Source of the DNA: Isoetes taiwanensis
Taxonomy: Eukaryota > Streptophyta > Lycopodiopsida > Isoetales > Isoetaceae
Assembly: GCA_021234155.1 (NCBI GenBank)
Contig: JAJEKV010000084.1
Span: 558,001-622,000 of the forward strand
Direction: 5' to 3'
Length of the DNA: 64,000 bases
Shown here: positions 1 to 42,198 of the stretch, piece by piece
How positions within the stretch are numbered: position 1 is the first letter of the stretch
Layout of the letters: each line of letters opens with the position of its first letter
Notes under the pieces: model-generated
Databases searched by the model: none
Seen by the model: the letters and a program-made list of their open reading frames with translations, nothing else
Told to the model about the DNA's origin: nothing
Program-made: the position numbers and the translations under genes

Positions 1-151
1 TTACAACAGTCCTAGAGGGATTAAGTCCCCTTATGGATCCAGCCTTTTGGCCTGTTGACTGGCACTCTTTGCATAATGTGCATAGCAATGATGATAACAA
101 TCAGCGCTGAAAAATTAGATACATTTAATGACCTCATTAACTATTAAATAC

Positions 152-3100
152 TTGCCATTTCACTAGGCGTGTACCCAGCAAGCTTAGCAGTGGCAAAGAA
201 CTCTGGATGAGTGACGTCAATGTCTTCGTGACTGCATAAACATAATTCAAGCATTGAAAACCACAAACACTGACTACCAATGAAAACATTTACGAAGATG
301 AACATGGTTAAAAGGGATGGTTATGCCTCGAAGAAAACAATGCCTCACATTTAATTAGACAAAATCCACCAGAATTATCAACCTAGCCATATGATCCTAC
401 AACATATTAAGTTAAATCCACTATATACATTCTACCGCCAGTCTTTCACCTTTATAGAGACATCCATTACACAAAGGAACTGTTGTTAGCTCTTCTACTC
501 TGCCTAGTTCCTTTTTGAATGAGTCTCTCAGAAAAAAATAATGAGCTTTATTAGATGGGAACTTTAGAAAAGGTCAAAAATGCTAAGAGAAGGGAAGGCA
601 GGCATCCATAAGGAAAGGATAAAGATAGATACTTTTGGCGAATTACAACAATGCAATTATAAAAGTAAGGACTAAAATAAAAGGAACCAAACGATATTTG
701 GGATGCCTGTGTTGGTGAGCATCCTTCAAAGTGAAGAATCCCAGACCCAGGTAGTCATCTATTTTTTAAGTCGAAATGACCTTAAAACTGGACCAATCCA
801 TTGCATTAATGATCTGGAGTAAGCCTAGTTCAAATGGACAAAATGATGAAGAATATGCAGAGCTGAACAGTAAATCTCTGTTTCTTGCAGACTTAAGAAG
901 CATGTAGCCTTTTGAGACAAACTCAGCAAGCTGTCATGATGAGCTACCGAATCTCACCAGATTAGTCAAAACAGGGAAGGCATATCTGTCAGGGATCCCA
1001 AGTCAGCATCTTTAAATAGAGACTTAGAGGAATAGATCAGATGGTTTTGCAGCAGAAGCTGCCCTGGTTTGCCTCCAAAGCTTGCAGATTTCTAGAATGT
1101 ATATTGACTGCCCAAATTTTGTATATTCCTCACTATTGTGATCCTTTTAAGGAAAAATCATCAGCAGTGTGTGCCAATATCTCTCCAATAATTCAGACCT
1201 GAAGGTACTAGTTTGGAGAGAGTAAAACAAGCATCAAAGTTCATTTATAACAAAGCCTCCTTTAAGGAAAGAATAAGAAAATCAAAATTAGATCTTCCTT
1301 GGCCAAGTAGCCTAGTTGAGAGGTATTGGGCACCACTCCCTTTTTTTTTTTATGATTTTGTTATTTAGTCTTGCATATTGTAATATTATGGCTTCACAAA
1401 GTTAATATATATGTTCATCTTTCTTCTTTCAATGACATCAATTTGCTCAGGCGTTGTCCTACAATGTAATCAATATGAACGTCATATTTAAAAACCACAC
1501 TCCTAACTGCATTGCACATCAAGTTGTTATGGCAACACTAACAAAGTCCACGCGTATTAAGGGCAATATTATGTTCATACCTGACATTAAGATCCCCACA
1601 CCATATAAGAGGCTTGGAAGAAGTTTGTGTAACAAATCTAAGTACTCTCTTATCCCACTTTCTTCTCCTTTCAAACCCCATCTCGTCATCTTTCCACCCA
1701 TTATTTGGTGCATAAGTATTTAGAAGTTGGAAAGACTGGAATTCAGCAATGATAACTCTCCCGTCAGGTTCATGTTTCAAAAGGCCTGTTTCTGTTCTAA
1801 TCACATATCCAAAATAAAAACGATGTTATAAAATCTAGTGTATATGCTAAAAAGGGCGATTGCAAGGAAGCTTAATATCTGCCCGTTTTGATAAGACTTA
1901 ACCTAAGGATTTCCTTCATCTTCTTGTGCATTAGAAAAGGCAAGGACTGCATGTCAAGATTGTCATCACAATATGAAGAAATTAATATGATTTATCAGAT
2001 CCATGGGTGTGTCATGTCATCAGCAATCGCCATCAAGCATACTACCTAAAAGCAAGCATGGCAAAGCAAAAGAAAATGCTAACATCGTCTAGGGTGGTAA
2101 TACTATGATGAAAGTTTATAAACCATATGATACATTTCTTCGTCAACATTAAGGAACACTATGGTTTAATTTGATATTATGAAAAGTCTACCAGCAATGC
2201 ATGTGAATAATAAAATCTATGAGACTTTCACTTTTCCTTTTTAAAATACTGTAGATATTCATATAGTTGGCAAGCCACATAGACAATCCACCTCTAATTG
2301 TGTGCCCCATTTTGAAAAAAAGAAGCAGATAATTAAATGATCAGTGACTTGATGCCACAATCACATATTCCTGCTCCAATTATAGCTTTGGCAGTTTACT
2401 TTGCTGTTTGCTCGGGTTTTTTTCCTTCCTTGGCAATATTACTTGATTCTGCATGCCTCAAATTCTTCATTGCACAAACAAGCATCCAGCAAAATATCTC
2501 TTTCTGAGTTCAACGCTATGGGGATACTTTATTCATGTCTTCAGGAGACAACTTATTTAGAGAAGGACGTGATTAATTTTTGCCCAGAGGAGTGTTTTTT
2601 CTTTCTTCTGATCTTAATAATACCACTTTACGGAAGAACCAAATAGGAACAGAATGTGATGTTCTAAGGTCGACATTATCAAGCAAAAAATGTTCTTTAA
2701 CATTGACAGACATATACAATGACACTTCAATAGCATACCTGAAACATCATCAAAACAATATTTTACGGCAATTGGCTTCATCTGACGCTTGACAAGAAGG
2801 GCCGTTCCCCCATACTTATTATCCGCCAAAGACCACCAAACTTGGTAATCTACCAGAGGAGAAACAGATAGAGCACGCATAATTGTCTGTACATACTTAA
2901 CTGTCAGCAAAATAACAAATCCTACGAGTTATGATTTAAAAGAAACAGAAAAATCAGATGCATAAGAGCAGCCAAACACATGAATTATAAATTATTAAAC
3001 CTTTTCATATTGCTAATCTCTTCATGAATTAATAAGGCTTCACCTTCTTTCGTTATCGGTTCTTACAAGTTTACCATTCTAAAGTTTACTATGATTTAAT

Positions 3101-4372
3101 GGTGTAAGGATGGAAAGTTAGGTATGTGAATGGCTCTGCAGTCCAATGGCAGTGGCACAGTAAGACCTTATCGAGGCTGAAAACTCTGCCACTTCTAGTT
3201 ACAACCCCATACTCTCATTTATGGTCTCCCATCCTTCCTTTCAAGACTTCTTGTAGGAGAGAAATAACCTTCCTTCGCCATCCAAATGTTCTGTTTGTGA
3301 GGTCAAAGAGCCTAAAATAGGTTAGAGCACATGGCATTGCTTGCTTTCCTTTCTCCCTAGCCAGTTAAGTTCAGAACCTGTATTGACTGCAGTTAGTTGC
3401 CTGCAGGATGCCAATGTGCAGGATGCCAGTGCCATGCTGCTATGCTCTGGTAGTATCCAAAATATCCAGCTTTTAAGGTTTATAAGATATGGATTGTATA
3501 TTCTTGTGAACATAAAATCATATCTATATATATGTTGTTCAGCCCAAATTGCCTTCTAATACACAATCTGAGCTTGAAGAGCTGCTTTCATGGCATTGGC
3601 CAGAAAAACAGTTGCACTTCCAAACTGTGGCATTATAGATGGATAAAAGTTATCACCATACCATTCGGCATTCTCATAGGACATGGTGAGAGCCAAATTA
3701 ATCTGTCACTAGTCCACAAAAAGCGATCATCCACATGTGCCCCTGTAATCTTGACGTACTTATGTCCTGTCAGTATGGAGTTTTGGAGAGCTTTGTCGAT
3801 ATAATAGAATCTTATTGGAGTAGTAGTTATTAAGATCCATAATATGCTTTTCGCATGTTTGTATCAAATCAATTTTTGAATTATTGCCATGACTTCGTCA
3901 GCTGCTCATTCATTATAAATGACGTCAATACGTCTTCCCATTGCAAGGGATATGCAAAGTATCAAGCTAAAGAGAGGAGAATAAGAAGTTCTAATATACC
4001 TGCTTATCATCTCGAGCAGAACTCGTATCGTCCTTCATTTCCGACTGATTTTTCTTCTCGCCTTTACGTCCAGCTGCGGGTATGCGTACTTCCTGAATGC
4101 AACATTTCTTAAAGCCCGCAAAATTTGAGATAGATGGCGGCCTAGAAACTCGCCTGAATAGCAATGACATCGGGATCAAGACGTTTGATGAGATTGAAAA
4201 ACTCTTCGCGACTGTTCTTGAGACGCAATAGAAAGCTATTGGCATTCCACGACATAAATTTGGTGGGCTCTTGGACGGGTTTCCCGTTGTCGGGTTGTAA
4301 GACCGTATCTGGCTGTGCTTGCTTCTTTGAAGGAAGTTCGTCTCGCTTCACGGGCTGGAAGAAGCGCTTCAT
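152..4372 (-). CDS. APE1L: APE1L-type AP endonuclease / exodeoxyribonuclease III family, 5' five exons (3' end outside window)
   Basis: Enzymes of this family cut DNA 5' of abasic sites in nuclear base excision repair and trim blocked 3' ends. Five exons join in frame with splice-consensus ends: 4154-4372 (begins MKRFFQPV), 4000-4092, 2739-2886, 1581-1791 and 152-231, giving about 250 codons. Family hallmarks in order are FMSWNANSFLLR (the Asn loop), DPDVIAIQ|EVR (metal-binding Glu at the exon 1/2 join), YQVWWSLADNKYGGTALLVK, EPDGRVIIAEF, LLNTYAPNNGWKD, KPLIWCGDLNV (catalytic Asp and Asn) and HEDIDVTHPEFFATAKLAGY. The N-terminal MKRFF..PV matches plant APE1L rather than the longer ARP. An upstream in-frame TTG is ignored; the ATG at 4372 fits the family start. 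Intron 1 is a 61-nt GC-AG intron; the other introns end GT-AG. Exon 5 ends in phase 1 and the remaining C-terminal third (the DHCP region) is not in the window. No frameshift or stop is seen, so the gene is probably functional. Confidence 0.93.
4093..4153 (-). other. 61-nt GC-AG intron of APE1L
   Basis: On the minus strand exon 1 ends ATTCAG, the intron starts GCGAGT and ends TTGCATTCAG, and exon 2 starts GAAGTACGC. Removing exactly these 61 nt restores the family sequence VIAIQ|EVRIPAAG. Without removal, translation ends two codons after Gln-Ala-Ser-Phe. GC-AG introns are a known minor class; this one is also very short. Confidence 0.8.
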
Positions 4373-4625
4373 TGCGCACAAAGCTTTTTAAAATTAAGGT
4401 GGGAGTCTTCAGGGCGAAATCACACTTGGGCAAGGCAAGTGCGATTCCGGCCTCAATACTGTTCTAAACTTTGAGCTAATCAGATCACGCTTAGTGCTTT
4501 TATCAGCTCGAAGGTCACATGTTAGTCCATAAAGATCACGTGTGGCCTAAATAGGTTCAGGCCCCTAAAGGAGCATATTAGCAAATGCATACTATTCCTT
4601 CGGGCTAAGGATTTAACTATATATA

Positions 4626-4857
4626 AAAAAAATTTATTAATAGATAGTATTTTAATGTCACGCCACTAGGCAGCATCCAACTGGACATGTGACCACACAC
4701 CACACTACATTGCTCGGTTGGGCCCTGCCCCCAACCACCTTACATTGCATCTGTTAGGATTTGACCCCCAACAGTACCGAGTGCGATTCTGGGCGGTCTC
4801 GAACTCGAGACCACATTGCTAAGGAACTAGTGTGTTACCACTAGACCAAACGCTGCG
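4626..4857 (-). mobile_element. tRNA-derived SINE
   Basis: Read on the minus strand, the head is tRNA-like: an A-box-like TGGTCTAGTGG (4838-4848) and a B-box-like GAGTTCGAGACC (4795-4806) at normal spacing form an internal Pol III promoter. The body carries no reading frame. The 3' end has a small hairpin GCC-TAGT-GGC (4662-4671) followed by GTGACATTAAAATA and an AT-rich tail. This terminal arrangement matches the 3' ends of LINEs elsewhere in the window, suggesting it is mobilised by such a LINE. It lies between the APE1L promoter side and the PLATZ copy. Exact ends are uncertain because no target-site duplication was identified. Confidence 0.7.
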
Positions 4858-5141
4858 GAGGCCTTCGCCATCGCAAACATTTCTTTAGTTCTAACTCTGT
4901 GAAGTTGGATATACCATAACTTCTAGGCCCTTGTTTAGTAAGGGATTTGTGATAGTTCGAGTTGCATAAATGGCAATTTTGAATACATTTCTTATCAAGA
5001 CATATATAATTCAGTTTATAATTATTCTTTTTCCTTTTTTTTTGTTCTGCGCTGCAATCTAAATGCGGCTTTCTAGGGCACATGTGCGGCCAGATTGAAA
5101 GAGACGCATGCGCCCTGTTCTGCACTCTGTTCTCGCCGGAT

Positions 5142-5546
5142 ATGGCGATCCAGAAACGGGAGGGGCCTGGTTGGATAAAGCTCTTTCTTTCGGGGTGTTA
5201 TTTCGCGCATTGCAGAGTTCATGCTTCTGGGAAAAGTGAGCGGAATCATTTCTGTTTGGATTGCGAAGAAGGGCCCTTGTGCTCCAAAGGATTGCAGAAG
5301 CATGGCGATCATAGAACTCTTCAAGTCCGGCGAGCTTCCCACATGGACACAGTTCGGATCTGCGACTCCCAGAAATTTCTCGATGTCTCCGGCATTCAGC
5401 CCTACACGATTGGGGCCAAAATAATTTTTCTTCTTAGTCGCCCTCAATCCAGAGCTTCCAAATCCGGCCCCTGCAGCTGTGAAATGTGCGGCAGAACCAT
5501 CTCCGATCCGGTTAGATTCTGCTCCATCAGTTGCAAGCTTGCATAG
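5142..5546 (+). pseudogene. PLATZ zinc-binding protein, intronless copy with one lost zinc ligand
   Basis: PLATZ proteins are plant-specific zinc-dependent DNA-binding regulators that act in the nucleus. The 134-residue frame from the ATG at 5142 (MAIQKREGPGWIKLFL) covers the whole PLATZ domain: C24-x2-H27, FCLDC (C38, C41), C47, H54-x2-H57, then LQVRRASH, QKFLDVSGIQPY, GAKIIFL, CEMC (C113, C116) and FCSISCKL (C127, C131). The expected Cys in CSxC is Gly50 here, so one zinc ligand is missing. The stop comes immediately after CKLA, whereas family members usually carry a further C-terminal region. Plant PLATZ genes normally have introns and this copy has none, which fits a processed retrocopy. 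The frame stays open upstream to an ATG at 5082 but that extension has no family support. A KCS fragment follows in the same frame directly after the TAG. Confidence 0.85.
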
Positions 5547-5939
5547 ACCTACGCTCCTCCCGGTCTGTTTGGTGACAAAGGGCCTCAGATGACCCTGCAG
5601 TACGCCAAGGAAGAAACCCATGAAGCTTTTCTGGCAGTCATGGAAGAACTGCTGCACAAAACAGGGATTCCTGCGCACAAAATTGGCATTCTGGTAGTTC
5701 AGTGCACTGGCTACAGCTCTGTTCCATCTCTGAGCTCCATGATCGTGAATAAATTTAAGCTTGGGATGGACACTCTTACATATAACCTATCAGGCATGAC
5801 CTGCAGTGCAGGAGTTATTGCCTTAGATCTGGCAAAGGATCTGCTCAAATCCGCCCTCTCCGAATATACCTGTCGGAGTGAGACCCATGCCCATCACCAT
5901 TTGCTCCTTCAAAACATGAAAATACTACTTTCGTCCTGA
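5547..5939 (+). pseudogene. 3-ketoacyl-CoA synthase (KCS/FAE1 type) fragment
   Basis: KCS enzymes condense malonyl-CoA with long acyl-CoAs at the ER to make very-long-chain fatty acids. The frame begins TYAPPGLFG and runs through AFLAVMEELLHKTGI, KIGILVVQC, PSLSSMIVNKFKL, YNLSGMTCSAGVIALDLAKDLLK, which is the central KCS segment including the active-site Cys (SGMTCSAG). Homology stops near 5849 and an unrelated tail runs to the stop at 5939. The N-terminal membrane segments and the C-terminal catalytic His and Asn regions are absent, so it cannot be a working enzyme. It is continuous in frame with the PLATZ copy across one TAG, so the two pieces form a chimera of unrelated gene fragments. Confidence 0.85.
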
Positions 5940-7175
5940 AGTTTTTTCCCCTAGGCTCCTGTTTGCCCTTTTAATTCTTTTTTTTTCGTGATGGAGAAAT
6001 ATCAGAGAGCCGTTAGCTTCTTATTCAGCATCTGGGATGCTTGCCTTCATTGGATAATGGTTTTGGCTCATATTTTTTTACACATGATTGAGACGTCTAA
6101 GTTCAGCAGTTTCTAGTTTACTTTGGCATTCGGGGGTCTAAGAGCACCTTCAATAGGATCTCAGCATGTCAAGGCACAGTCTTACTACCCCCTCGAAGTC
6201 TTGAAGATTGTAATAAACTCATGGTGAGCTCAGGAATTTCCAAATTTCATTTGCTCTGACTCTTCTTTTATGTGTTTTCAGGGGCTCTTTTAGGTAGTGG
6301 CACCTCATTTCATGCAGATAGTTCCGAAATAGTTATTTAAAAACTTCAAGGCCCTGGATATGATCCTACAAGGACCACTTGGGGCAGTTTTAATTTTAGC
6401 TCAGTCCGTTTTTTGCGCGGTTAAGTTGCATCAGAGAATTCGTTGTGAAGTCGACTGATTGGATATTGCAGGTTGTATTGGACCTTGATGAAACATTAGT
6501 ATGTGCATATGACTCTAGATGTATATTAAGCTAGAGAAAAATGTAGATAATGGAATAATTCTATTAGATTTTGTTACTCTAGATGTATAACTCTTTATAG
6601 TTTGATGAAATTGTATAACATGTAAATAAAAAGCAGCATCTTTCAAGAAGGGCTTGCATCGGGGAAGTCTTGGGCAATGGGGTGAGATGAATTCAAAGGG
6701 AAGGGAAATTTTAGCTGCTTGAACAATAAAGTTGTAGTGATCTATAAGACATCAAGGAATCATTGAAAAAACTAAGAAAAGCTTTAGACCAATTGTCAAT
6801 GGTGACCTATATTGCAACACTAGCCTTGCTAGTTTTAACGTCTAAGAACTAGATTAATATAACAGCATATACATGTTGTTAGAAATCCATCATATTGAAT
6901 GCTATCTATGAACCATTTACGGTTCCAATATACTAATAGGGAGACAAATATATCTCTAATTCGAGTGTGTTTCACAACATTGTGTTAATAGATGTTTATT
7001 AATAGATGTTTGTTAATAAACAATGGATCTAATTTCACAGGTTTGGAAAGGCATTAACTTTACATTCTTCTTTCTCAGTCACACATTATTTTCTTCTAGA
7101 ACACAAGGTGAGAAAGCACATGTCCAAATCATGTATATTTTTGGACATGTTGACGAGATAGTTGAAGAGAAATGT

Positions 7176-7199
7176 TCGCGGCGGCCTTGGCCGCCGCGA
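7176..7199. repeat. GC-rich 11-bp perfect inverted repeat
   Basis: TCGCGGCGGCC and its exact reverse complement are separated by TT. It is an isolated all-GC block in AT-rich sequence and resembles the core of the palindrome array at 23.66-24.04 kb. Confidence 0.9.
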
Positions 7200-7592
7200 T
7201 AAATTTCTTGTATCTATAACACATTGTGATTGAGAATGTTGCATATCATCGCGTCATTACAAGAGTAATCAGCTGCTAGAGGTTCATCAGTTGTTCGAGG
7301 TTATTTTCAAGAGTAATCAGCTGCTAGAGGTTATCTTTAAGGACATTATGAACAATCATAATTATACATGTTCTGGTTATGCCACAATTGCTTTCTCTAA
7401 TTAATGTTGCTATTTTGTTTGAAGCTGCTTGTTTGGCAGGTTTAACTATGGATCTCCCTTTCCCTCGGGCAACAGAAAGGTGATGCCTGATTAAGTCAAT
7501 ATAATTGGGTAGGCATTTCTTTGAACTGTCATGTGGTATGTGCCAATATCTTGTATACTATTTGTATCGATTATTTAGTGAATAAGTGCTTT

Positions 7593-7746
7593 GCATTACA
7601 TTGCAATGAACACTATTGATCCTTATAGCTTCGTACATTGTCGGATATGCTTCTGTTGTTTTGAAGCATGCATTACATTGTTATGAACGCTATTGATCCT
7701 TATAGCTTCGTACATTGTCAGATATGCTTCTAGTTGTTTCGAAGCT
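7593..7746. repeat. 77-bp tandem duplication, two units
   Basis: Units 7593-7669 and 7670-7746 share the GCATTACATTG...GATCCTTATAGCTTCGTACATTGTC...ATATGCTTCT framework with a few substitutions. No coding role is seen. Confidence 0.85.
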
Positions 7747-9238
7747 TGTTTTAGAAACTTTGACACCATATCTTTCTTCATAAATCCGGCTAGATGTCTT
7801 AGAGCAATTTGCCCAGATTGCAAGCAAACGCCCACAATTGTTATATTGTAGGGGTAATCTATCCGGTTCCCCTTTGAAGGAGCTCACTCCTAGCTTTGCT
7901 GTTACCATGGCATTCCATACCAAATTGGAATGTGGTCACATATAAGTTATAGTAGAGAGAGAAGTTTGTATCAAGTATATATTGTCTTTGAATTTTAATG
8001 ATTGCAAGTTAGAAACCTAGAGTTAAGGTTGTAAGGGAAATTAACTTTAGACCAAATAAATGTCGAGCTGAAGGTCGGGTTGTGGGTTCTTAGACTGATT
8101 TGCTTCAAATAGCTGGCTTTTAAATTGTAAAGAGAAACTCCTGCAAATCTTCAATCCGAAAGCTTAAACGAGGTTCAAGCAAATAATGAAAAATAATACT
8201 GAAGAGAAACTCCTGCAAATCTTCAACCCGCAAGCTAAAAATAATATTGAAGAAAGAAAAATAATGCTGAAGAAAAATAAGGTGGATGTTAGAGCAGATA
8301 TAGAAAAACCATGGATCTACGAAGGCAAGCCCTATTCATGCCTATGTTCAAGGCCAGATAACCAAAGAGCCCTAATCATCCATGCCGTAGATCAAAAAAG
8401 AAAACATGAAAAACAAAATAACGCTTACAGTGCTCTCTAGCCTAGAAAATGTACTTCAAACAGTAGGGAAGGTATTGCATCAAAAGTGCCTTGAGTGAAA
8501 ACTTCCTTTTCTTTCACAATGCTCTCTTCCAGAATTGCCTTGCTTTGATGCCAGAACTTGGCAGCATCTGGCCTTCGGCATTCCTCCCTTTGCGGTTAAG
8601 GTAACAATTCCGGGCATGGCCAGCCCATAGTGTGACAGGCAATGTGTATAAAGGCCCGAGAACGGACATCGTATGGCCGACCGGCGATTACTAGCGATTC
8701 CAGCTTCGTGCAGGGTTGAAAAGGATATTGGACGGCCTTTCTTACGACAGAGGTGGAGAACATACCACACGCTTAGACAAAACATACCTCCAGATTATGT
8801 ATAGCAGCCACAACGCCGAGCCTAACTCCTTTTGTTGTCGGCCCATCTCATCTGCAACCTGGCATACAAAATCGCTGAGGAAATTTTGATGAGGTGGATG
8901 GTCCAAAGGAGCAGACCCTTGGTTAAGGGTTGCCAATGCTCACAGTCCGGCGATTGTAAATGAAACATGATTTAATTGAAATGAAGAAAGATGATAAATA
9001 TTAGAAGACCATTCTCTTAGGTGAGGAAGGGATCACGTCCAATGAGGTTATGTCCATGTGTGCACCAATATAGATAAACTTAATTAAGCATCCATCCAGA
9101 TATTGACTTTGCATTGACCAACCCCTTTTTGCCCTCTTGAATTAGTTTAAATATTGATCAAGTTTAACATTGCAAACAAGCATGATTTTGTTAATTGGAG
9201 AGAATAACGCGATTTTGAGAATTTTGACCTCATCTAAT

Positions 9239-10461
9239 CTAGTCAAGCACAAAGCCTGAGAGTGCGATGAGCATGAACACTCCTTCTTCGCCCCTGGGGC
9301 TGAATTTGCGGTGTATTACCGCTATTCTCCCATCCAGCAGCAGGGGGAGATAGTATCTCAGCGACCTGTCATTGTGCGACGTTGTTGATTCGTCGCCCCC
9401 TCGGCCGCCAGCTCTATGTCTTCCGGCATATTCATCGACCTCCACCTCGGTAAACTCTCTATAATCCCTGATTGTCGATGAAACTCGCCTGATGTCGATT
9501 CTGCCTCTTCTCTCTGTGGGGGCTGGTGTCGAAGAGCTCGGCATCAAAATGTTTGTGGTCTTGCCATGGATCCCCATCCGTTCTTGGATGGCATAGAACT
9601 CCTCATCAGATGCCAGGTCCCGAGCTTCCATTATTTGCCTGATGTTGCTGTAGGCTTGGATGTCTGAAGTCGACTCCCCTGTCGGCTTCTCTTACCTGAA
9701 GCGGGAAATCTGAAACTCCCCGGACGATGAAATCATCCAGATTGGGTTATTGCCGCAGTTGGTGCAGCAACTCGTCGAGTCGGTACTCCCTTTCCCTGCA
9801 TTCGGGAAGGTTCTGGATGTCGTTGAGGAGCAGGTACTCCTCGCCGTCGATGATGATGGGGGCTAGGCTTGTGATACCTAACCTAAGTGGGGGAGCGATC
9901 CTGAGGGTCTGCCGGTTTCGTTCGAAGTTGCGTAACTCCTCTTCCGCTAACTGCTGCTCTTCTGCTGGGTCGAGCTCGATGTAGTCCTCGTCTTCTGCTC
10001 TTCCTTCTTGCTCCTGTTGGTATTGCAAAAGGAGCTGATCTGCTGCTAAGGAGGCTATGAGGTCCACCTCCATGGGAGGGATAGAGGTTTCCCCCATGGG
10101 GTTTTCAGCACGGTGGGAAAGGAAGATTGCTAAGGCGGCGTTGTAGGAGAAATACTTGGTCCTGTCGACTGTCAAGACCATGTAATCTGGCAACCTCTGG
10201 GCCCTGTTGGTCAGGTACTTGGCAATGTTTGGAACATCACCCAAGGCTGCTTGAAGGGATGGCCGGGGAACAAAATATCCTGTACAAGGGGGGAGCTGCA
10301 CTAGGGACTAGCTTGGAACTCGGCTAAAACTTGTCTATATGCTGGGGTTGCGTGCAGAGTGGCTTGGACATCTATTTCTTTCTGGAAGACTTGGAATATG
10401 GTATTGACATCGGTCTCAGCTGCATGGGTGATGGTAATCGCCTAAAGTCAGCAGTTGCCAT
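9239..10461 (-). pseudogene. Second gene of the H3-like cassette, unrecognised and frameshifted
   Basis: I do not recognise the family. The likely start is the ATG at 10461 (MATADF), chosen because it lies 40 nt after the leader motif, as in the H3-like gene, where the gap is 41 nt. The open frame then moves twice: a short second frame (AETDVNTIFQVFQKEIDVQ, LAEFQASP), then 9747-10301, a 185-codon stretch with a strongly acidic middle and REYRLDELLHQL at its end, then 9239-9631 with basic GRIDIRRV and the end IALSGFVLD. No zinc knuckle, protease, reverse transcriptase or histone fold is visible. A GTAAGA splice-donor-like site occurs near 9690, so part of the break could be an intron. It may be a gag-like or accessory protein of the neighbouring LTR element, or a captured host gene. 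Confidence 0.5.
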
Positions 10462-10573: not shown

Positions 10574-10582
10574 CTATTTATA
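10574..10582 (-). promoter_or_regulatory. TATA box of the second cassette gene
   Basis: TATAAATAG on the minus strand, 56 nt upstream of the shared leader motif (10502-10517) and downstream of hairpins 1 and 2. The order is the same as in front of the H3-like gene. Confidence 0.6.
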
Positions 10583-10775
10583 GACTAGGGGAAAACCCTA
10601 ATTTTTGGATGACTTGAAAAACTCTTGGGTTTGGCCAATTCTAGCCTATATTGAGGTACAAATGGGAATTGGAAGGCTAATTTGAGGGTTTGAGCATGAC
10701 TGGGACTATCTAATGAACCTATTGCAACAAACTGGAGGTCAATTGGACATGGCATGGTAAAGAAAATGCTAGGAG

Positions 10776-10842
10776 GTCTTGCACGTTGCGCCCAGGTCAA
10801 GACCTAGAGTCTTGGTTTTGCTCCTGGCGCGACGTGTGAGAC
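10776..10842 (-). repeat. 67-bp foldback element, copy 1
   Basis: Near-perfect outer arms of about 20 bp (GTCTTGCACGTTGCGCC against GGCGCGACGTGTGAGAC) enclose a second hairpin CAAGAC-CTAGA-GTCTTG. Four copies of the same length and orientation occur within 2.2 kb. Confidence 0.9.
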
Positions 10843-10975
10843 ATCTGCCCTATCTTGGTCAAAACTTGTCCAATTTGGGTGATTTAAGGGTCAAATCATG
10901 CTAGACTCATCGAGTTAGGCAAGATTGACTCCTTACTTGGTCGATTTGGAGGTGTTTTAGTCTAGTTTGGATATG

Positions 10976-11042
10976 GTCTCACACGTTGCGCCCAGGTCAA
11001 GACCTAGAGTCTTGGTTTTGCTCCTGGCGCGACGTGTGAGAC
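10976..11042 (-). repeat. 67-bp foldback element, copy 2
   Basis: Same design as copy 1, exactly 200 bp away; the inner hairpin is identical and the outer arm starts GTCTCACACG. The sequence between copies 1 and 2 is unrelated to that between copies 3 and 4. Confidence 0.9.
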
Positions 11043-11185
11043 ATCCTCACTTCTTGCCCTTAAAATGTCCAAACTAACTAAAAAAAAAGCCAAATGTTGC
11101 TAATTCGACCTAATTAACATGAATAGTCCACTTATAACTTTCAACAAAACACTTTGTATTAAACAAAATTTTTGATTTACAAAAA

Positions 11186-12493
11186 TTAATAGGGCTCTCC
11201 CTTAATTACACTGGCCAAGTGCATATCCTTCCTCATTAAGGTTACTCGCTTGGCATGCACGGTGCAGGCTGTGGAATCTTCGAAGTGCTGCACCAGCTTT
11301 TGTTCGGTTGCTTCCTGTAGTGCCAACAGCATCTCGTCCGTCACCCTCATGCCGGTGTTGTATTCCTGTATGACTTCTCTGACTAACCGGGCGAAGGGTG
11401 CTCGGGGGACTAGGAAGCCGAAGCTACGCTGGAAGTGCCTGATCTCTCGTAGCGCTCGTCTCTCGCTCTCCTTTCTGCTGGCTCTCTTTTTCGCTGGCTT
11501 CTTGGGAGGCTTGGGCTTTTCTGGCGGCGGCCTTAAGGTCTGCTTCTTCGATGGACGTCCACCTTCGACGATTCTGACCATGTTCTCTTGGTAGTAGGAG
11601 TTGTAAGCCTCCCACTTCCTCATGTACGCGTTGTGCTCCCTCAGCTTCCGCTCGTAGACCTTGACATGGTCTATCACGTACGACTCCCGGGCAGGTCGCG
11701 GGGCTTTCTTCCTGTCCCACGTCGGGTATGGTGGGGGTGCCTGCACTTGACCTGGCTGCTCTTGGTCCGGTGCTCCCTACTCGTCACCTTGGGGTTTAGA
11801 AGAACTCCCACCTGCAGCATTGGGGTTGAAGTCTTCATCTTCAGAGTCGCTTGAGGGCGGGGGCTGGTCAGCTGGTCGCTCCTCGATAATGAGCTTTGTT
11901 CGTGAAACCTTCTTCATTTTCCTTTGGCCCGCCTCCACGAATTTTCCTTTCTTCCGCTTCAGTTCCTCGGCCTCCTTGGCCTCCTTCTCCTCCCTCTTCC
12001 TCTTATTCTCCGCCTTTTTCTTTGCTCGGCGCCGCTCTTTCGCTTCGTGCATTTGGATCCATGCCTCGAGCTGCTCCTCCTCGGTCTGCTCGGGGGTGGG
12101 CTCCCTCCGCTCTTCTTGCTCCTTTGCCTCCTCCTCTCGAATCCAGGCTTCGAGCTGCTCCTCCTCGGTCTGCTCGGGAGTCGGCTGCCTCTGCTCTTCG
12201 CGAGCCTTGGTTCTCCTCTCTCGCTCTGCTGCCTCCTCCTCGAGCACTTCTGTAACTGCATTTGAGTGCACCTCGTCTTGATCGACCTGCTGGTTTATCT
12301 CCTCGTTCTGTGCTCCCTCCGGCTGGGATCCTTCCCTTTGGTGCTCATCTGAAGCTGTTCCCTCGCTCGATGAAGACTGGTCTTTTTGGTTAAGAAGGCG
12401 CTCCTGAAGCATCCGCTGTATCAGGCTCGGATCTTGGGCACTGGCCGATTCACCAGGTCGGGGAACTCGAGCGGTCTGTTTGGTTCTGGCCAT
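11186..12493 (-). pseudogene. Giant histone H3-like protein with H3 tail tip and H3 fold; one in-frame TAG
   Basis: One frame of 435 codons, interrupted only by TAG at 11777-11779. Residues 1-9 (MARTKQTAR) equal the N-terminus of histone H3, including R2, T3, K4, T6 and R8; position 9 is Val, not Lys. Residues 10-346 are unrelated to H3: a Gln/Glu-rich part, a 28-residue tandem repeat built on PTPEQTEEEQLEAWI (residues 104 and 132), a Lys/Arg-rich stretch that could be a nuclear signal, an acidic SDSEDEDFNP patch, then Pro/Lys-rich sequence. Residues 347-435 align without gaps to the H3 fold (ALREIR, PFARLVREV, LALQEA, HFED, HAKRVT, MRKD, LA) and end at the normal H3 stop. About half of the fold residues match canonical H3 by eye, including C110, H113, R116 and D123 of the H3-H3' interface. 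Loop 1 has normal H3 length, so it is not a typical CENH3. It lies 0.7 kb downstream of an LTR primer binding site in the same orientation. The TAG could be CAG changed by one C-to-T; readthrough or a sequence error are alternatives. Confidence 0.85.
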
Positions 12494-12534
12494 GTCTTAC
12501 GGTTCGTCGATCCGAGGTCGGGCGCCCAAAAATT

Positions 12535-12550
12535 GCCTTAGGGAGCTGGA
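12535..12550 (-). promoter_or_regulatory. Shared 16-bp leader motif before the H3-like gene
   Basis: TCCAGCTCCCTAAGGC on the minus strand. The partner at 10502-10517 differs by one base. Each copy lies 40-41 nt before its gene's ATG and 45-56 nt after its TATA box, so it is probably in the 5' UTR. Confidence 0.6.
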
Positions 12551-12595
12551 GCAGATTTTCTAAGGAGAAAACGTACAAATGAGGGGGGTCTAGAT

Positions 12596-12604
12596 CTATT
12601 TATA
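12596..12604 (-). promoter_or_regulatory. TATA box of the H3-like gene
   Basis: TATAAATAG on the minus strand, 103 nt before the ATG at 12493. Identical in sequence to the box before the second cassette gene, which suggests each gene has its own Pol II promoter rather than relying on the LTR. Confidence 0.65.
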
Positions 12605-12705
12605 TGGGCAATTTTTAGGTTAAAGTTCAAGTTACTCTATTGGATGAGCCAAGACACTTATTAGCCTTCTTACATGGGCTTAATTTAGACTTTTTTAATC
12701 CATTG

Positions 12706-12772
12706 GTCTCGCACGTTGCGCCCAGGGCAAGATCTAGAGTCTTGGTTTTTGCTCTGGCGCGACGTGTGAGAC
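12706..12772 (-). repeat. 67-bp foldback element, copy 3
   Basis: Outer arms GTCTCGCACGTTGCGCC and GGCGCGACGTGTGAGAC. The inner stem is CAAGAT with GTCTTG, so one end pair is a T-G wobble. It lies 213 bp before the H3-like ATG. Confidence 0.9.
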
Positions 12773-12919
12773 ATTGCGGATTTTTATGCTAAATTATATG
12801 ATTTCTAGGCATATTTCTAGGGGTGTAATATACCAATCTAGCTACATCCTACCTTAAAACTCGATCTAGCATGTTACTTTTTTGAAATTCATCAAGTATT
12901 AAGGTGTTTATGGGCCAAT

Positions 12920-12986
12920 GTCTCGCACGTTGCGCCCAGGGCAAAACCTGGAGTTTTGGTTTTGGCTCTGGCGCGACGTGTGAGAC
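12920..12986 (-). repeat. 67-bp foldback element, copy 4
   Basis: Same outer arms as copy 3, but the inner stem is CAAAAC with GTTTTG. Relative to copies 1 and 2 a G-C pair has become A-T on both sides, which keeps the pairing. It lies 187 bp from the primer binding site. Confidence 0.9.
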
Positions 12987-13172
12987 ATGCTTACCTTTAG
13001 AAAGATTTGGCTCAAGTTTTAGTCTTTTTATGTTCCAATTCACTTCACTGTTACTAGCTTAGCATATACTACAAAAATGAGAAAATTTTTTCCCACTTTT
13101 CGAGGTTTGAGGATCCTATCAAGTTAGTACTACTGGGAGTATGGCCAGTGCTTTGCTCTTGGTCTTCAAGAA

Positions 13173-13188
13173 CATTGCTCTGATACCA
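13173..13188 (-). promoter_or_regulatory. LTR-retrotransposon primer binding site (initiator Met tRNA)
   Basis: Minus strand TGGTATCAGAGCAATG. Its first 12 nt are complementary to the 3' end of plant initiator tRNA-Met. It starts one base after the LTR end, the usual position for minus-strand priming. Confidence 0.85.
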
Positions 13189-13189
13189 C

Positions 13190-14721
13190 TGTGACGTCCC
13201 CTACTCATATACGGTGCACTCACCGTATACGAACAAGAGTTCATCCCCCATACCAGCTTCTGCTGATACAGGGCCCTCCACGTATCACTGTAACCTTGAT
13301 GAGTTCCAGTGGGAAGAGTGGAGGGGTCATTTTACCCCATCTCCCTCAAGGCCTACCTAGCTGCGGAAGCGTAAACATACATGTCAGTATACAACAACAA
13401 CATCACATGACCATCTCGAAGGATGGCTCACCACATATCTGCATAAACAAGATCAGCACATCACATGTGGGAGTCCTACCCAAGGCTCAGACTCAAGGGA
13501 AAGGACTGACGGCTTGGGTCTCCAGAGTTCATTGCAGACAGAATTCATGGCAATGGATTTGGCTGGCATGAGAACATGGCTTAGGATAGTCCACTCCATC
13601 CGCCCCTCCTGTGCACACTTCGCAAAGTAGGTTGAAAAGTGTTGGGACCTGACTGTAGCCCGCCGGATGCATAGCCAAAAGGGCTATTCCTGGGTTGCAT
13701 CTCCCCAGTTCTGATGGGGCCGGTAGGGATCACTCCCTCCAGAGATCTACATGCTGACTCAAGGTGACTAGAGGGCCACTGCCCTTATTCGACTTGAACC
13801 CACTGGAGAGTGGCGCATCACTCCACGGGTGTCGAGCCCATGCCTTGCTTACACTCAGTGGCAAGCCATTAGACCTAGTCCACAGTGATCCCCGGTAGGC
13901 CTTACACACCAAAGGGGTCGTTCAAGAGTCAGAACACGAACCTCGTTATAAGCCAGTCTGGCCCCTTCACCCACAACCAGGCGTGGCCGAATCTACAGTG
14001 TGCTAAAGAGGCTAGCTAGGAGCATCACTACTAGGCCTTAGGGTCTCTACCCCCCTTCCCAATACAATGAGTTCACAGAGATACATATCCATATACATCA
14101 CAGAAGAACTAAAGAACTAGATCTAATCTATATCATAGAGTTAGGTTCTTTAGTTAGAGCTTGGTATCTAGGGATCTAGATGGCTGCTATGGGCAATTAA
14201 TAGGCTAAACCTACTGATTCAATGACTGAAAGACGGTTTAGGCTATTAAATTGACTAAATACCTGATCCTTGGCTCGCTCCTCCTGCCCTGAACTCGACC
14301 ATCCTGCTGAACTGCTAGAAGATGGAGCTAGAAGGGGAAACTAACGAGCTAATTCGCTCAGACAGAGTCTGGGAGGCGGTTTTGACTCCTGGAGCAAGCA
14401 AAACAGAGCCCTAAAATGGCATGAACGATAATAGCAAGTTAGGGTTTCTCTTACCTAAATAGACAAGGGTTTAGGGCTAGGGTTTCCAATTACCCCTGTG
14501 GGATAATTGGTGTGGCCCACTTGCCTTTATGAGGTGGCATAAGGGTCCACAGGGAAGATGTGCACCTAGATAAATGTGCACATTGGTAAATGCACACACC
14601 TTGCAAGTTGCCCCCTTAGGGGCTACCCGCTTGGCTACACGTCGGCGTACACGTCAGTCGGGGTGGCATGTACGCGTGACGAGGCAGTACCTGGGACCGT
14701 ATACTGTGTTGGAACGTCACA
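13190..14721 (-). mobile_element. LTR (5' LTR of a minus-oriented retrotransposon)
   Basis: The 1,532-bp block has TG...CA ends inside an 8-bp terminal inverted repeat TGTGACGT/ACGTCACA, and a primer binding site abuts its inner end, so it is not a solo LTR. A perfect inverted repeat ATACGGTG-CACT-CACCGTAT lies at about 13209-13228 near its 3' end. No second LTR was found toward lower coordinates, and no reverse transcriptase or integrase is visible between 9 and 13 kb. The element is therefore truncated or non-autonomous; the H3-like cassette occupies the position of its internal region. Confidence 0.75.
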
Positions 14722-26353: not shown

Positions 26354-27158
26354 ATGATGCGACTTGTGTATGCAGCTAGAGGCCCGGGGCTCGAGGGGAA
26401 CAACAACGAGACCGTGGGGAAGAAACGGACTCCTTGGGCCACACACCCAAGAAGGAACCTGTATGAGGCGTTTGGTGCCATGTCTCCCGAGGAAGAAATG
26501 TCTCAGATGAGAACGGACCTTGAGCAAATAAAGGCCTTCTTGGCAGCCCAAGGAGGAGTTGTTCCAGATGGCAGTGTCCAGTTGCCCGAAGCACCACCTC
26601 AGAATACGAAGAAGGACAAGAGGAAGAGCAAGAGAAGGAGGTCCCCCAGTACGGAATCCTCTGACTCAAGTTCGGATTCGGACTCGACTCAGGCGGCGGT
26701 CGCAGAAACGAAGGGCGAGCAGAACCCAAGGAACCACGAGGACCTCGGACTACCAGAAGAAGGTAGACTCAACATTGGGAAATGTATGGAAGGCCAGGAA
26801 GCTCGAGCAATTCTCAGGCGAGAACAGGTCAGGCATGGAAGCAGTGGCTTGGCTCGATGAGATGAGTGAGTATGGTAACGCCTATGGAATGAAGGACAAG
26901 GACAAAGGCAGGGTGGCAACAGCCAACCTTAAAGGAGCAGCACGCATTTGGTGGAAGGGTTATGCCAAGGCCCATGGCTTAAGCAGGGATGGTTGCAGGT
27001 TCAAAAAGTTTGCCAAGGCTTTCAAGCGCTATTACGTCCCAAGGGAACACAAGTCCAACATGATGCAGCAGTTCTACAGGTTGCAGCAAGGAAACAAATC
27101 AGTCCAGAAATATACAGAGGAATTCATGAGACTATGGCTTTATGTGCCGAAATGGTGA
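26354..27158 (+). pseudogene. LTR-retrotransposon gag remnant, frameshifted
   Basis: Frame 1 (26354 to about 26740) encodes a gag N-terminal part: SPEEEMSQMRTDLEQIKAFL coiled segment, then a basic and Ser-rich linker. Frame 2 continues with the retrotransposon Gag core: FSGENRSGMEAVAWLDEM, RVATANLKGAARIWWKGY, FKRYYVPREHKS, QFYRLQQGNKSVQKYTEEFMRL. The core matches the general plant Ty3/gypsy Gag pattern (product size, WW, then LxQG and SVxxYxxEF). It ends abruptly at about 27160 against a minus-strand integrase fragment of another element. Gag packages retrotransposon RNA in cytoplasmic particles; this one is broken. Confidence 0.75.
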
Positions 27159-27186
27159 TGTTGCAGGGAATAAAATGAGCCATCTT

Positions 27187-28540
27187 AAAGAAACGATCAA
27201 CAACAACCATGATGGCATCATAATCCCGAGAGAGTGGCAACTCCCGAATAAAGTCTATAGAAATACTCTTTCAAGGTCCATCTGGTACTGGCAGTAGCTG
27301 AAGAAGGCTATAAGGAAGATGCTTTGGAACTTTCGCTCGACAGTAGATGTCATATGATCGAATAAAAGCTTTAATAGAGCGACAAAGCCCAGGCCACCAA
27401 TACTTTCGACTAATAAGTTCAAGAGTCTTGGCTACTCCAAAGTGTCCGACCATAGGTGAATCATGGCAAGCCTGGACAACCCAAAGCCTAGAAGCACCGT
27501 CTGGCATATACAGAAGCCCATAACGGAATAGGAGCCCATCTCGAACTTCAAAACGATCATAGTCCATTGCATTTGCTGAGAAGATGATGTAGAGCCAAGG
27601 TGTGAGAATGCATCTTTGGCCACTGGATCGAAGGGCATAGATGCTCGAACAAACTCCAACAAAGATGTATCACGAGACCTCTCGAATAAAGTGAGAACTA
27701 TAAGCTGGAACCGATTAGGACCTAGAATAACCTGTGATTGCTGATTAAATGCAGGATCCCCTGGCTTGAGTTAGGAGCATCGAGACAAGGCATCAGGCTT
27801 CCCTTGGAGGGGTCTCAGACGGTACTTGATCACAAAGTCAATGCGAGATGGTACTTGAGTATGCCACCGGGCCTGGCAACGGTTGAGCACTCGAACAGAT
27901 GAAAAATATTCTAGATTTTGATGATCTGTATAGGTTGTGACCTTATAAGAAGATCCCTCTAGGAAACGTCTCCACTCCTTAAAAGAATCAACTATCGCCA
28001 ACAACTCCTTGTTATAAATGGGATAGTTGATTTCAGTGACTTGAAACTTCCGCGAAAGTGATGGGCGTCAAATGCAATTCATGGTCATTCCCCTCTCACA
28101 TGACGGGGATACCACCAAAAGCAAAATTAGAAGCATCTGCCCGACAACCCTATGGCAAAGGATCTGCATGAGCACGACGTCGTGGTGAAAGCATGCTTGA
28201 ATGTAACGGCGCGGTTCGGCTTCCACACTCCATTCAAATGGCATGTCCTTAACCGTGAGGCATGTCAAAGGAAGGGCAATCTCCGAATAATCCCAAATGA
28301 AAGACCGATAAAAATTGGCAAATCCAAGAAAACACTGAACATCTCGAATGGATGAAGGTGCCAGAATAGTGCTGACCTTTTTGGGATCCATAGAAACTCC
28401 ATGTGGAGTGATATAATAGCCAAGGAACTCCGCATTATCATGTTCGAACTGACACTTCTCAAGTTTGGCATATAACTCGTGCTCACGAAGCTTCTAGAGG
28501 ACCTGTCGAACATGTCTCTCATGTTCGACAGGTTGATTCT
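27187..28540 (-). pseudogene. Ty3/gypsy integrase, RNase H and RT C-terminal part (unit 1)
   Basis: In coding order: RT C-terminal part (28540-28068) with FLGYYITPHGVSMDPKK in mixed frames and SIRDVQCFLGFANFYRSFI; RNase H (28049-27771) with ELLAIVDSFKEWRRFL and YTDHQNLEYF (catalytic Glu and Asp); integrase zinc region (27662-27271) with ACHDSPMVGHFGVAKTLELI, YYW-type KYWWPG; and the start of the integrase core (LSRDYDAIMVVVDRF) to about 27187. The two zinc Cys of the HHCC site are replaced by Tyr (SYDIYC in place of SCDVC). The frame is broken by several shifts and a TAA after RNase H, so no active polyprotein remains. Confidence 0.85.
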
Positions 28541-28544
28541 TTGC

Positions 28545-30042
28545 TCCATAGACCGGCTGGTTCATCTGCCTTAACAGCTCTGCGTGACCTTAGGGAATTC
28601 TGCGTGACCTGTAAGGTCTTGGTACGATCCTGCCTAGCACAATATATCTGCACAAGGGCCAGCATCAAGCCACCCGATCCTGCAAAGAGGAATTTTGTGA
28701 CATCACCGACTCCTTCTCTCTTAGCATCAGGTTTTGTTTATTGCTCTTATTGTTCTTACTGTTCTTGCTATTTGCGGCTGTTTGCCCACTGCTTACCCAT
28801 CGCCCCTAGCCATGACGCGCAAAGCTAAGGATATGGCAAGGAAGGCAGCAAAGGCTGCACCCTGCCAGCCCCCTACCCCTACACCCACGGTTTCTGCAGA
28901 TGCATCCCCGGTCTCCTGCAATCCGACCACATCACAGTCCCCCTTGCTTACAATTCAATCCAGGATGCAATCGGTGCAGTGCGGAGTTACGATTCTGAAA
29001 AATTCATGCGGCTCCCTCTAGAGCGGTTGGGCACGAGTTCTAGAAATAATGGAGCACCTAATGAAAGAATACATAGGTCATCTTTGCTTGCTCCCCTTTG
29101 CCACCCGGACGGATCGGCACACATCTTTACGGCTTCGGATGCCATGATCTGGTGAGGCACTCGCGAGGTACATCCGACCATAGCCATGTCCACGGTGGAG
29201 TGCGATGTCGCGCCCATACGGTGGCGATGGCGATTACGAGAGGCCCCCATCCCAGAATCGAATGTTGGATGCAAGATGCGGCTCGGGGAGCATGCAGGGA
29301 ACCCGGCAAAGCGTCCGATAGCACATTGAATGTTGGATCACGGGATGCAACTTCGGGGAGCATGCACAGCACCCGGCAAGCAGTCCAGATAGCACATGGA
29401 ACCCATGTATGGGCGATGCACAGGCGGGATCGTTCCCTCAATTTGCGTCTAGTAGGTGTCCCAGACATAGCCTCCTATTCGGATAGCGAGACTGCTGCAC
29501 ATTTTTTCACGGATATTATGCGCATCCATAGTCCAGGAACTTTTACAGCGTGCCGAGTAGGTGCTTATCGGCCCGACCGGCCACGCCATCTTCTAATCTG
29601 ATTTTTCGGCGTCCGGGGACGGCTATATGTGCTTTCTGACATGGAAGTCACCTCAAGGGCACTCCCTTTTCGGTCCAGGAAGATCTTTCCCCAGTTCAAT
29701 TAACTCGGCGGCGTGATGAGTTATGCAAGGTTCGAGATGCGAGGCTTCAAAGAAAATGGGCAGTCTATCGGGGAGGTGGCGCACTTATTCTTGATCAGTG
29801 GCCTCAGAACCCCTGGGTAGGTTACGTCTAATCGCACCAGGGGATATGTCCAGTCACTTCTGCTCGACTCGAGTTTTGCTCTGTTCTTAAGACCTTTGGC
29901 ATTGTGTTTGTCTTGCTTGTATTCCATTGTCTATAATGTTTTACGTGATTCGGGCTTATGCCCTCCCATACGTATTAGGTCCCATAACCCGATTGGGTTT
30001 TCGCGGACGATAAAATCTTTATCTATCTTATCTATCTTTGAG
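28545..30042 (+). mobile_element. LINE-derived insertion in gypsy RT (unit 1 copy)
   Basis: About 1.5 kb on the plus strand interrupts the gypsy reverse transcriptase just after its LDD motif. It has a short frame starting MTRKAKDMARKAAKAAP with a Pro/Thr-rich run, like the basic start of a LINE first ORF. A 66-bp tandem pair follows (about 29260-29395), then a 3' end with hairpin AACCC-GATT-GGGTT (29986-29999), CGCGGACGATAAAATC and a TATC-rich tail. No reverse transcriptase is present, so it looks like an internally deleted, non-autonomous LINE. The 5' boundary is approximate. Confidence 0.65.
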
Positions 30043-30756: not shown

Positions 30757-30765
30757 ATGATCAAC

Positions 30766-32110: not shown

Positions 32111-32111
32111 G

Positions 32112-34450: not shown

Positions 34451-34696
34451 AGCTGAGACATCATCGAGAGCATGCTCAGAATATGGGGTATAAACTGGAG
34501 CAGAGACAAGAGTCGAATCAGAACATGACGTAGAAACAGGAACAACAAGAACGGAATCAGGAGCCCACGATACTGCATGGATTGAAGTCGATATTGGTAC
34601 AAAGGCCTGAACTACAGATGAACTGGAACTAGAGCTAGAACCAGCAAATTGAAATGATCTAGTATGCTAATCAATCTGTGGGTTATAAAGCTCGAG

Positions 34697-36402: not shown

Positions 36403-36415
36403 CCTTATATATTTA
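36403..36415 (-). promoter_or_regulatory. TATA box reading toward gypsy gag (copy A)
   Basis: TAAATATATAAGG on the minus strand with an inverted CCAAT box directly upstream (plus GCCAAT at about 36417-36422). Confidence 0.55.
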
Positions 36416-36458
36416 GGCCAATGGTTAGGATCGCGCCAAGTGTCATGCATGCATGTAG

Positions 36459-36478
36459 GTTCTAGACTATTCTAGAAC
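36459..36478 (-). promoter_or_regulatory. Heat-shock-element-like site (copy A)
   Basis: Minus strand GTTCTAGAATAGTCTAGAAC is four adjoining nTTCn/nGAAn pentamers with one mismatch (GTC for TTC). It is 44 bp upstream of the TATA box, a usual distance for heat-shock-factor sites. Confidence 0.5.
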
Positions 36479-42045: not shown

Positions 42046-42141
<96 letters not shown>

Positions 42142-42198
42142 GGATAGATGGATAGATGGATAGATGGATAGATGGATAGATGGATAGATGGATAGATG

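Follow-up and report, generated by a model that had tools for sequence, protein, structure and literature searches.

A tail-replaced histone H3 encoded by a Ty3/gypsy chromodomain retrotransposon family of Isoetes taiwanensis

Introduction

On the minus strand of a 64,000-nucleotide stretch of the Isoetes taiwanensis genome (the window), a long reading frame, ORF1, carries the tip of the histone H3 tail at one end and an H3 fold at the other. The locus raises the question of whether such a frame is a single gene, what kind of genome it serves, and what an H3 with a replaced tail could do there. Plants rely on H3K9 methylation to silence transposons, and chromodomain retroelements are believed to find their targets by chromatin marks.

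Results

ORF1 joins an H3 tail tip, a long insert, and an H3 fold

The first-pass annotation, made from the sequence alone, described ORF1 as opening with the nine N-terminal residues of H3 and closing with an ungapped H3 fold. Both ends are as described (Table 1). The tip matches H3 at nine of nine positions, and in a tblastn search the fold aligned with H3 residues 47 to 133 at 53% identity (E = 2e-26) with zero gaps. The downstream frame of ORF1 (186 aa) matched the Pfam Histone family (E = 8e-26) and H3 chains in the PDB (E of about 6e-25), and the upstream frame (238 aa) had no Pfam match. The frame is not open, however, and the annotation overlooked the stop at codon 239. That codon is free of a stop in all five near relatives fetched by fold DNA.

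ORF1 has a single internal stop in 435 codons. First-order Markov shuffles had 13.6 on average, none of the 5,000 had one or fewer, and the minimum in any shuffle was three. Because the count lies so far below the shuffles, the frame is or was coding; this test and the relatives described below rule out a chance frame. G+C at the three codon positions of the N part was 0.67, 0.41, and 0.63. Tip and fold lie about 337 codons apart. The insert begins with an acidic and charged part, followed by a conserved segment for which a low-confidence model predicts a long helix (residues 20 to 61 of the 186-aa frame; the AlphaFold models were single-sequence, with pLDDT of 59 and 41). Between the two halves of the 28-codon duplication, dN was 0.13 to 0.28 and dS 0.67 to 1.72, varying with the stretch compared.

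Table 1. Features of the element copy that carries ORF1 (window positions)
Feature	Position	Strand	Remarks
5' LTR, 1,532 bp, ends TGTGACGT...ACGTCACA	13190..14721	minus	from termini and family similarity
Primer-binding site (PBS) TGGTATCAGAGC	13177..13188	minus	1 nt past LTR; sole exact match in window
Leader, 683 nt, PBS to ORF1	12494..13176	minus	
71-nt hairpin, copy 4	12919..12989	minus	leader, before ORF1
71-nt hairpin, copy 3	12705..12775	minus	leader, before ORF1
TATA-like box TATAAAT	12598..12604	minus	about 110 nt ahead of ORF1 start; consensus match only
ORF1, H3-like protein	11186..12493	minus	435 codons, one an in-frame stop
H3 tail tip MARTKQTAR	12467..12493	minus	M plus residues 1 to 8; 9/9 identical to H3
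Insert in place of H3 residues ~9 to 46	11456..12466	minus	between tip and fold
28-codon tandem duplication	12034..12201	minus	within ORF1 insert
In-frame stop, codon 239 of ORF1	11777..11779	minus	private to window copy
H3 histone fold	11195..11455	minus	ungapped against H3 residues 47 to 133 (87 residues)
71-nt hairpin, copy 2	10975..11045	minus	between ORF1 and ORF2
71-nt hairpin, copy 1	10775..10845	minus	between ORF1 and ORF2
TATA-like box before ORF2	10576..10582	minus	consensus match only
Decayed ORF2	9239..10461	minus	broken by frameshifts and stops; still open at 10301-9747 and 9631-9239

Relatives of ORF1 in the genome

We searched the I. taiwanensis genome (1,658,258,908 bases in 1,110 contigs) for relatives. 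The Pfam histone family gave 8,705 first-look candidates, of which the best 150 were scored. The first 15 match from profile position 2, and the eight of these that we opened were all canonical H3 genes (L002 to L009). The other 135 match from position 4 or later, and some may be host exons. Among the best 150 places, 36 have open frames of 400 to 494 aa and 5 have a stop inside the match. Twenty loci were fetched from the 135 on the basis of their fold score and frame length. Each of them codes for a protein of 400 to 459 aa, counted from the likely start, with the H3 fold at its end.

A DNA search with the last 561 bp of the window copy, the fold region, gave 2,054 first-look candidates; 40 places, the window itself among them, were scored and were 83 to 100% identical. 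A DNA pattern for MARTKQTAR-V occurred exactly at 307 places and with up to two mismatches at 2,397, a count that can include canonical H3 genes; the reversed control gave none. Among the tip matches listed (contigs to C980), 6 of 11 fold places had an exact tip 690 to 800 bp upstream. We opened four tip-pattern loci. The window-type fold was in place in two (L033 and L034), and tblastn detected no H3 fold in the 3 kb of either L031 or L032. Only the segment preceding the fold is present in L031. The frames of L031 and L032 start MARTKQTARV and continue with other inserts. Either the tip also stands at the front of other kinds of protein, or these two copies have decayed.

The 307 exact tips and the 40 scored fold places dispose of one caveat in the annotation, that ORF1 might have no other copies. 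The relatives repeat its arrangement, and tip, insert, and fold are one gene as proposed. A lone chimeric gene, or tail and fold joined by an assembly error, is ruled out by all 20 fetched relatives, the 40 fold-DNA places (one of them the window itself), and the stop-codon test.

ORF1 lies in a Ty3/gypsy chromodomain retrotransposon

Ahead of ORF1 are an LTR and a PBS, which we take to be of the plant initiator tRNA-Met type. In 18 of the 20 fetched loci, the LTR region matches stretches of about 60 to 170 bp of the window LTR at 75 to 89% identity. An exact PBS is found in 13 of the 20, with 595 to 778 nt from its start to the start of ORF1; this distance is 695 nt in the window. A profile of ORF2 matched the window in three pieces in the right order, one that passes (E = 3.5e-6) and two that fail (E = 0.035 and 0.052), with E values that refer to a database of three sequences. 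We assigned the window copy to the family from its LTR similarity, PBS position, gene order, and ORF2 pieces. No second LTR was found within the 64-kb window, and no gag or pol match was found beside the copy at window positions 1 to 9200. Therefore, the copy seems to be truncated at its 3' side.

A structurally complete relative (L018/L030) spans 11,169 bp and is flanked on both sides by the 5-bp sequence CAATC, a target-site duplication. Its two LTRs are 90% identical, and a purine-rich, polypurine tract (PPT)-like stretch precedes the 3' LTR in L030 and is also present in L019. In L018, the Pfam families Ty3_capsid, RVP_2, and RVT_1 mark capsid, protease, and reverse transcriptase; after a stop in pol, the same frame resumes with RNase H and then integrase. 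In L030, the one element examined in this respect, the integrase C terminus carries a chromodomain (PF00385; E = 1.1e-8). This relative is thus a chromovirus of the Ty3/gypsy type in which an H3 gene stands ahead of gag, and the window copy is a decayed, 3'-truncated Ty3/gypsy chromodomain LTR retrotransposon with an H3 gene. The LTR, the tRNA-Met-type PBS, and the family copies with gag-pol bear out the mobile-element origin that the annotation had suggested. ORF1 is almost certainly a retrotransposon-encoded H3. The H3 gene was captured, rebuilt, and sited between PBS and gag.

The gene content of the region upstream of gag varies. An open ORF2 of 460 to 502 codons follows ORF1 in 7 of the 20 fetched loci. 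In L026 it is followed by a short ORF3 (166 codons, no Pfam match) and then by gag-pol; L026, L027, L029, and L017 contain capsid and protease parts. In L018, the interval from ORF1 to gag contains neither an open ORF2 nor an open ORF3. ORF2 gave nothing below E 0.1 against Pfam and nothing below E 0.25 against the PDB.

With up to two mismatches allowed, the genome matches the family's LTR/PBS junction at 4,163 places (control, 0), and the H3-bearing element family is very numerous. Looking 1.4 to 2.2 kb downstream, we found the H3 fold at the expected place in 4 of 12 sampled junctions; these were the first listed, all exact matches, and an 800-bp stretch was examined in each. From this sample, perhaps a third of 5' ends, with a wide interval, still have the H3 gene in place.

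The four 71-nt hairpins form two pairs, one ahead of each gene (ORF1 and ORF2). In one hairpin copy, changes fall at matching inner-stem positions, and by eye the pairing seems to be retained. Of two window-type relatives, L034 has hairpin-like motifs on both sides of ORF1 and L033 has none. The hairpins and repeated promoter-like blocks had prompted the idea of a giant-virus remnant, which was dropped once the LTR, PBS, and gag-pol appeared. A scan of viral contigs with two parts of the window protein gave no relative, using a few exact peptide patterns that can miss relatives; an H3-wide profile gave one, 33% identical (L001:1087-1347, IMG/VR). No relative was found in prokaryote contigs. 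Because ORF1 resides in a retroelement, it falls outside virus-encoded histones in the sense of histones encoded by a DNA virus genome.

Several further observations concern the family and the rest of the window. Of the three aromatic residues that form the HP1 cage, two seem by eye to be missing from the chromodomain of L030 (L030:1-438). An incomplete cage has been described for group II retrotransposon chromodomains. L019:1390-9424 (oriented) reads LTR-ORF1-ORF2-LTR-leader, with no gag-pol between the LTRs and a repeat identity of 95.5%; it looks like a shortened or tandem derivative. L015:688-1737 is a window-type fragment (LTR end, leader, hairpin, and fold end) that lacks most of ORF1 and lies directly ahead of the LTR of another H3-bearing element, apparently as nested insertions. 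In the window, positions 34473-49000 and 50962-63447 form a large, near-identical direct duplication with a spacing of 14.5 to 16.5 kb (300-bp samples mostly 93 to 100% identical). A gag fragment at 26736-27149 (plus strand) is 57 to 61% identical to gag of the H3-bearing family, and 27145-33966 (minus strand) holds pol pieces from other gypsy elements with 3.55-kb direct repeats. A PLATZ transcription factor gene or exon lies at 5082-5546 (plus strand; Pfam E = 9e-21), in keeping with a plant origin of the DNA. By eye, 8570-8850 resembles a degenerate piece of plastid 16S rRNA, with no Rfam match.

The fold is retained, and the tail is replaced

By the start of the protein, the 20 fetched copies fall into subfamilies A (MPRFK and variants, 10 copies), B (MExxK, 7 copies), C (MANTK, 2 copies), and D (MARTKGTK, 1 copy). 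The window defines subfamily E (MARTKQTAR). Over H3 residues 37 to 135, the 20 copies are identical to host H3 at 82 to 88 of 99 positions. They have zero substitutions at 63, 65-70, 72-74, 78-85, 108-120, 122-123, and 126-132, among which are presumably residues that touch DNA, H4, and the second H3. Differences from host H3 (L002) are present in all 20 copies at positions 86, 87, and 107 and in 19 copies at 89 and 124. The core lysines K56 and K79 are retained in all 20, and the modifiable sites are thus not all lost.

This pattern bears on where the protein might act. The H3 fold, with or without host H4, could have no role in host chromatin and instead compact the element's cDNA inside the virus-like particle or the pre-integration complex. 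The gene lies ahead of gag and is kept with gag in the elements examined, and several DNA viruses encode histones (PMC9145170). However, the H4 and H3-H3 interface residues of A to D are near-unchanged, seemingly beyond what packaging needs, and we consider a particle protein improbable.

The conserved H3 tail, with K4, K9, K14, K18, K23, K27, and K36, is absent from the family, and the window type has its tip only. In A to D its place is taken by a linker and a domain some 200 residues long; searches with the domain gave nothing under E 0.1 in Pfam and nothing under E 0.25 in the PDB. In the window type it is replaced by a different insert, the second half of which is well conserved. By alignment, we found no counterpart of the K9-K27 segment in the window type or in A to D. 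The annotation had the segment from K9 to K36 swapped for about 335 unrelated residues, which stands for the length and, as far as alignment can tell, for K9, K14, K18, K23, and K27. When H3 residues 1 to 37 were aligned with the segment before the fold, the score was reached by 82 to 381 of 1,000 shuffles in eight other copies and by 12 of 1,000 in the window. Three other relationships were tried and rejected. A motif near PATGG, considered as surviving H3 residues 25 to 34, did no better than shuffles in eight copies; hhalign gave probabilities of 0.5% for the N-terminal domain being related to ORF2 and 0.1% for the window-type insert being related to the tail-side segment of A to D.

The window-type fold is further from H3. 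It is identical to host H3 at 50 of 99 positions, and the 49 changes include R63, F84, and Q85, presumably DNA-contact residues, which are kept in all 20 A to D copies. With this identity and these changes, it is doubtful that the window-type protein would form ordinary nucleosomes. The annotation had also stated that tip and interface are kept while the rest diverged. Tip and fold are conserved and the insert changes faster (see below), but the changes at R63, F84, and Q85 do not fit. Binding to readers of K4/R2, its proposed function, cannot be common to the family, because the exact tip is restricted to the window subfamily and is not kept in A or B.

The window subfamily might instead compete for centromere loading factors, or act as a decoy for H3K4/R2 readers, and we consider either very unlikely. 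The window-type fold is identical to rice CENH3 at 50 of 87 positions, against 42 to 46 of 87 for four H3s. Loop 1 of CENH3 is longer than that of H3, and loop 1 of ORF1 has the H3 length. Alignment scores for H3 (210 to 227) did not fall below those for the CENH3s (221 for rice, 192 for Arabidopsis, and 169 for human CENP-A). A decoy would suit the tip conserved in the window type but not its loss in A and B. Long CENH3 tails do exist (PMC9145170). We rejected a CENH3 origin as the main reading on the H3-like loop 1 and on the identity of the relatives to host H3.

Selection on ORF1 and its neighbors

We calculated dN/dS as the ratio of median dN to median dS within a subfamily. In subfamily A (45 pairs) it was 0.04 for residues 37 to 135, 0.13 for the preceding segment, 0.22 for the linker, and 0.08 for the N-terminal domain. 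The corresponding values were 0.02, 0.13, 0.08, and 0.13 in B (21 pairs) and 0.01, 0.27, 0.12, and 0.09 in C (1 pair). Because the A to C copies entered the sample by fold score and frame length, their dN/dS values are biased downward, most of all for the fold. For gag, dN/dS was 0.08 to 0.14 (6 pairs), and for ORF2 it was 0.08 to 0.21 in the 6 of 21 pairs with unsaturated dS.

For the window type, we used five relatives chosen by fold DNA with the tip disregarded (15 pairs, the window included). The dN/dS was 0.11 for the fold, 0.30 for the first part of the insert, and 0.16 for the second part. The tip had a pN of 0.000 and a pS of 0.34, and it was conserved at nine of nine positions in all four of these relatives in which it is readable as a whole; the stretch of the fifth begins inside the tip and has a stop there, which is omitted from the dN count. 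The two tip-pattern relatives and the window (3 pairs) gave 0.07 to 0.33 for the insert and 0.05 to 0.15 for the fold, with the tip unchanged by construction.

Analyzed separately, tip, insert, and fold each show selection, contrary to the neutral decay across all parts that the annotation had considered. With dN/dS low across its parts, the tail-replaced H3 of the element has been subject to purifying selection at the protein level. Many family copies, including that of the window, are broken by stops or decay, as expected of a functionless gene fragment that was captured and is copied along. However, dN/dS is well under 1 in every part within subfamilies, at dS from about 0.3 to saturation, and 36 of the best 150 histone places have long open frames. 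We therefore regard such a passenger as extremely unlikely.

The H3 and ORF2 genes may be older than the backbones that carry them

The LTRs of eight A elements were on average 83.7% identical to that of one B element (8 pairs), the only B element with both LTR ends found, and A elements were 82.6% identical to one another (28 pairs). Between two A, one C, and one D element, gag had a dS of 0.36 to 0.67. In contrast, synonymous sites of ORF1 and ORF2 were saturated or nearly so between subfamilies A to D; the lowest dS values were 5.9 (fold) and 1.6 (segment before the fold) for C-D and 2.9 (same segment) for B-C. LTRs and gag are thus close across subfamilies where ORF1 and ORF2 have reached saturation. 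This is most simply read as recombination that moved old, diverged H3-ORF2 cassettes between recent backbones, as suggested by few elements (4 for gag; 13 for LTRs, window included).

Discussion

We suggest that the ORF1 protein would pair with host H4 and replace H3 in nucleosomes. Its replaced tail would allow none of the K9 or K27 methylation with which plants silence transposons, and chromatin containing it, above all the element's own DNA, would remain open to expression. The new N-terminal domain might also recruit element or host factors. We put the probability of this whole explanation, an H3 stand-in through which the element escapes K9/K27 silencing, at about 0.45. Its parts differ in strength. 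The near-invariant contact residues and the low dN/dS in A to D make it probable that the protein acts by entering nucleosomes. That the gain to the element is escape from silencing is a tentative proposal, somewhat short of even odds, and the loss of the tail lysines may be merely a by-product of adding a domain.

Among the possible gains, escape from K9/K27-based silencing is the likeliest and tethering of integration comes next. As a tether, the H3 fold would sit in host nucleosomes and the replaced tail would serve as a landing pad for Gag or integrase, guiding insertions. The fold is kept most strictly and the new domain is also under selection, as such a role would predict, and the integrase chromodomain cage, which looks incomplete by eye against that of HP1, would make another targeting device useful. 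However, no fold was found in the 800-bp stretch at 8 of the 12 sampled 5' ends, some of which insertions or deletions could account for, and elements may thus spread without H3. On balance, we find a tether rather unlikely.

In the broader scenario that follows from nucleosome entry and cassette exchange, a retrotransposon lineage would have turned a core histone into a nucleosome subunit of its own, with a fold kept close to that of the host, an element-specific domain in place of the tail that bears silencing marks, and exchanged H3-ORF2 cassettes. We advance it with reserve, as something that may well prove wrong. If escape from silencing is true, an element-supplied H3 that lacks the marked tail would counter silencing directly, in the nucleosome itself, and thousands of copies could write private, mark-proof chromatin on their own DNA or at insertion sites. 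Whether a mobile element can alter chromatin by histone replacement becomes a testable question. The family also offers natural experiments on the need for the H3 tail, because the same conserved fold carries two or more distinct replacements of it. Histone gene counts in I. taiwanensis, and perhaps in related lycophytes, call for care.

Our searches of open-access PubMed Central listed no retrotransposon-encoded core histone. The word "histone" is absent from the main texts of the genome papers of I. taiwanensis (PMC8566536) and I. sinensis (PMC10541799).

Among known systems, the H4 of bracoviruses is a viral histone with an extended tail. Long-tailed CENH3 combines an H3 fold with a long, diverged N-terminal part as ORF1 does, yet it is a host gene; in Dictyostelium the tail exceeds 520 residues (PMC9145170). 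Virus-encoded histones such as bracovirus H4 and the histone doublets of giant viruses place a core histone on a mobile genome, but the genomes are those of DNA viruses or polydnaviriforms and not of retroelements (PMC9145170).

Captured ORFs are known from rotifer LTR elements (PMC5408684). An orchid Ty3/gypsy lineage is reported to carry an AlkB-type RNA demethylase ORF (PMC12786077) and is also a gypsy capture of a host-type epigenetic protein, although the captured protein is an RNA demethylase and not a chromatin component. Extra ORFs of plant LTR elements occur in either orientation and on either side of gag-pol (reviewed in PMC7264820 and PMC6431247); the word "histone" is absent from the main text of both reviews. 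Ogre, Retand, Grande, RIRE2, and env-like elements resemble the H3 family as high-copy elements with extra conserved genes. However, the extra ORFs of these elements mostly lack recognized homology, whereas that of the H3 family is a core histone.

The H3 family also resembles the chromoviruses (Galadriel, Tekay, Reina, CRM, and Tcn1 clades). They have in common with it the LTRs, the tRNA-Met PBS, the PPT, the 5-bp duplication, the chromodomain, and the order gag-protease-reverse transcriptase-RNase H-integrase. What the H3 family adds is sense genes between PBS and gag, the first of which encodes a tail-replaced H3.
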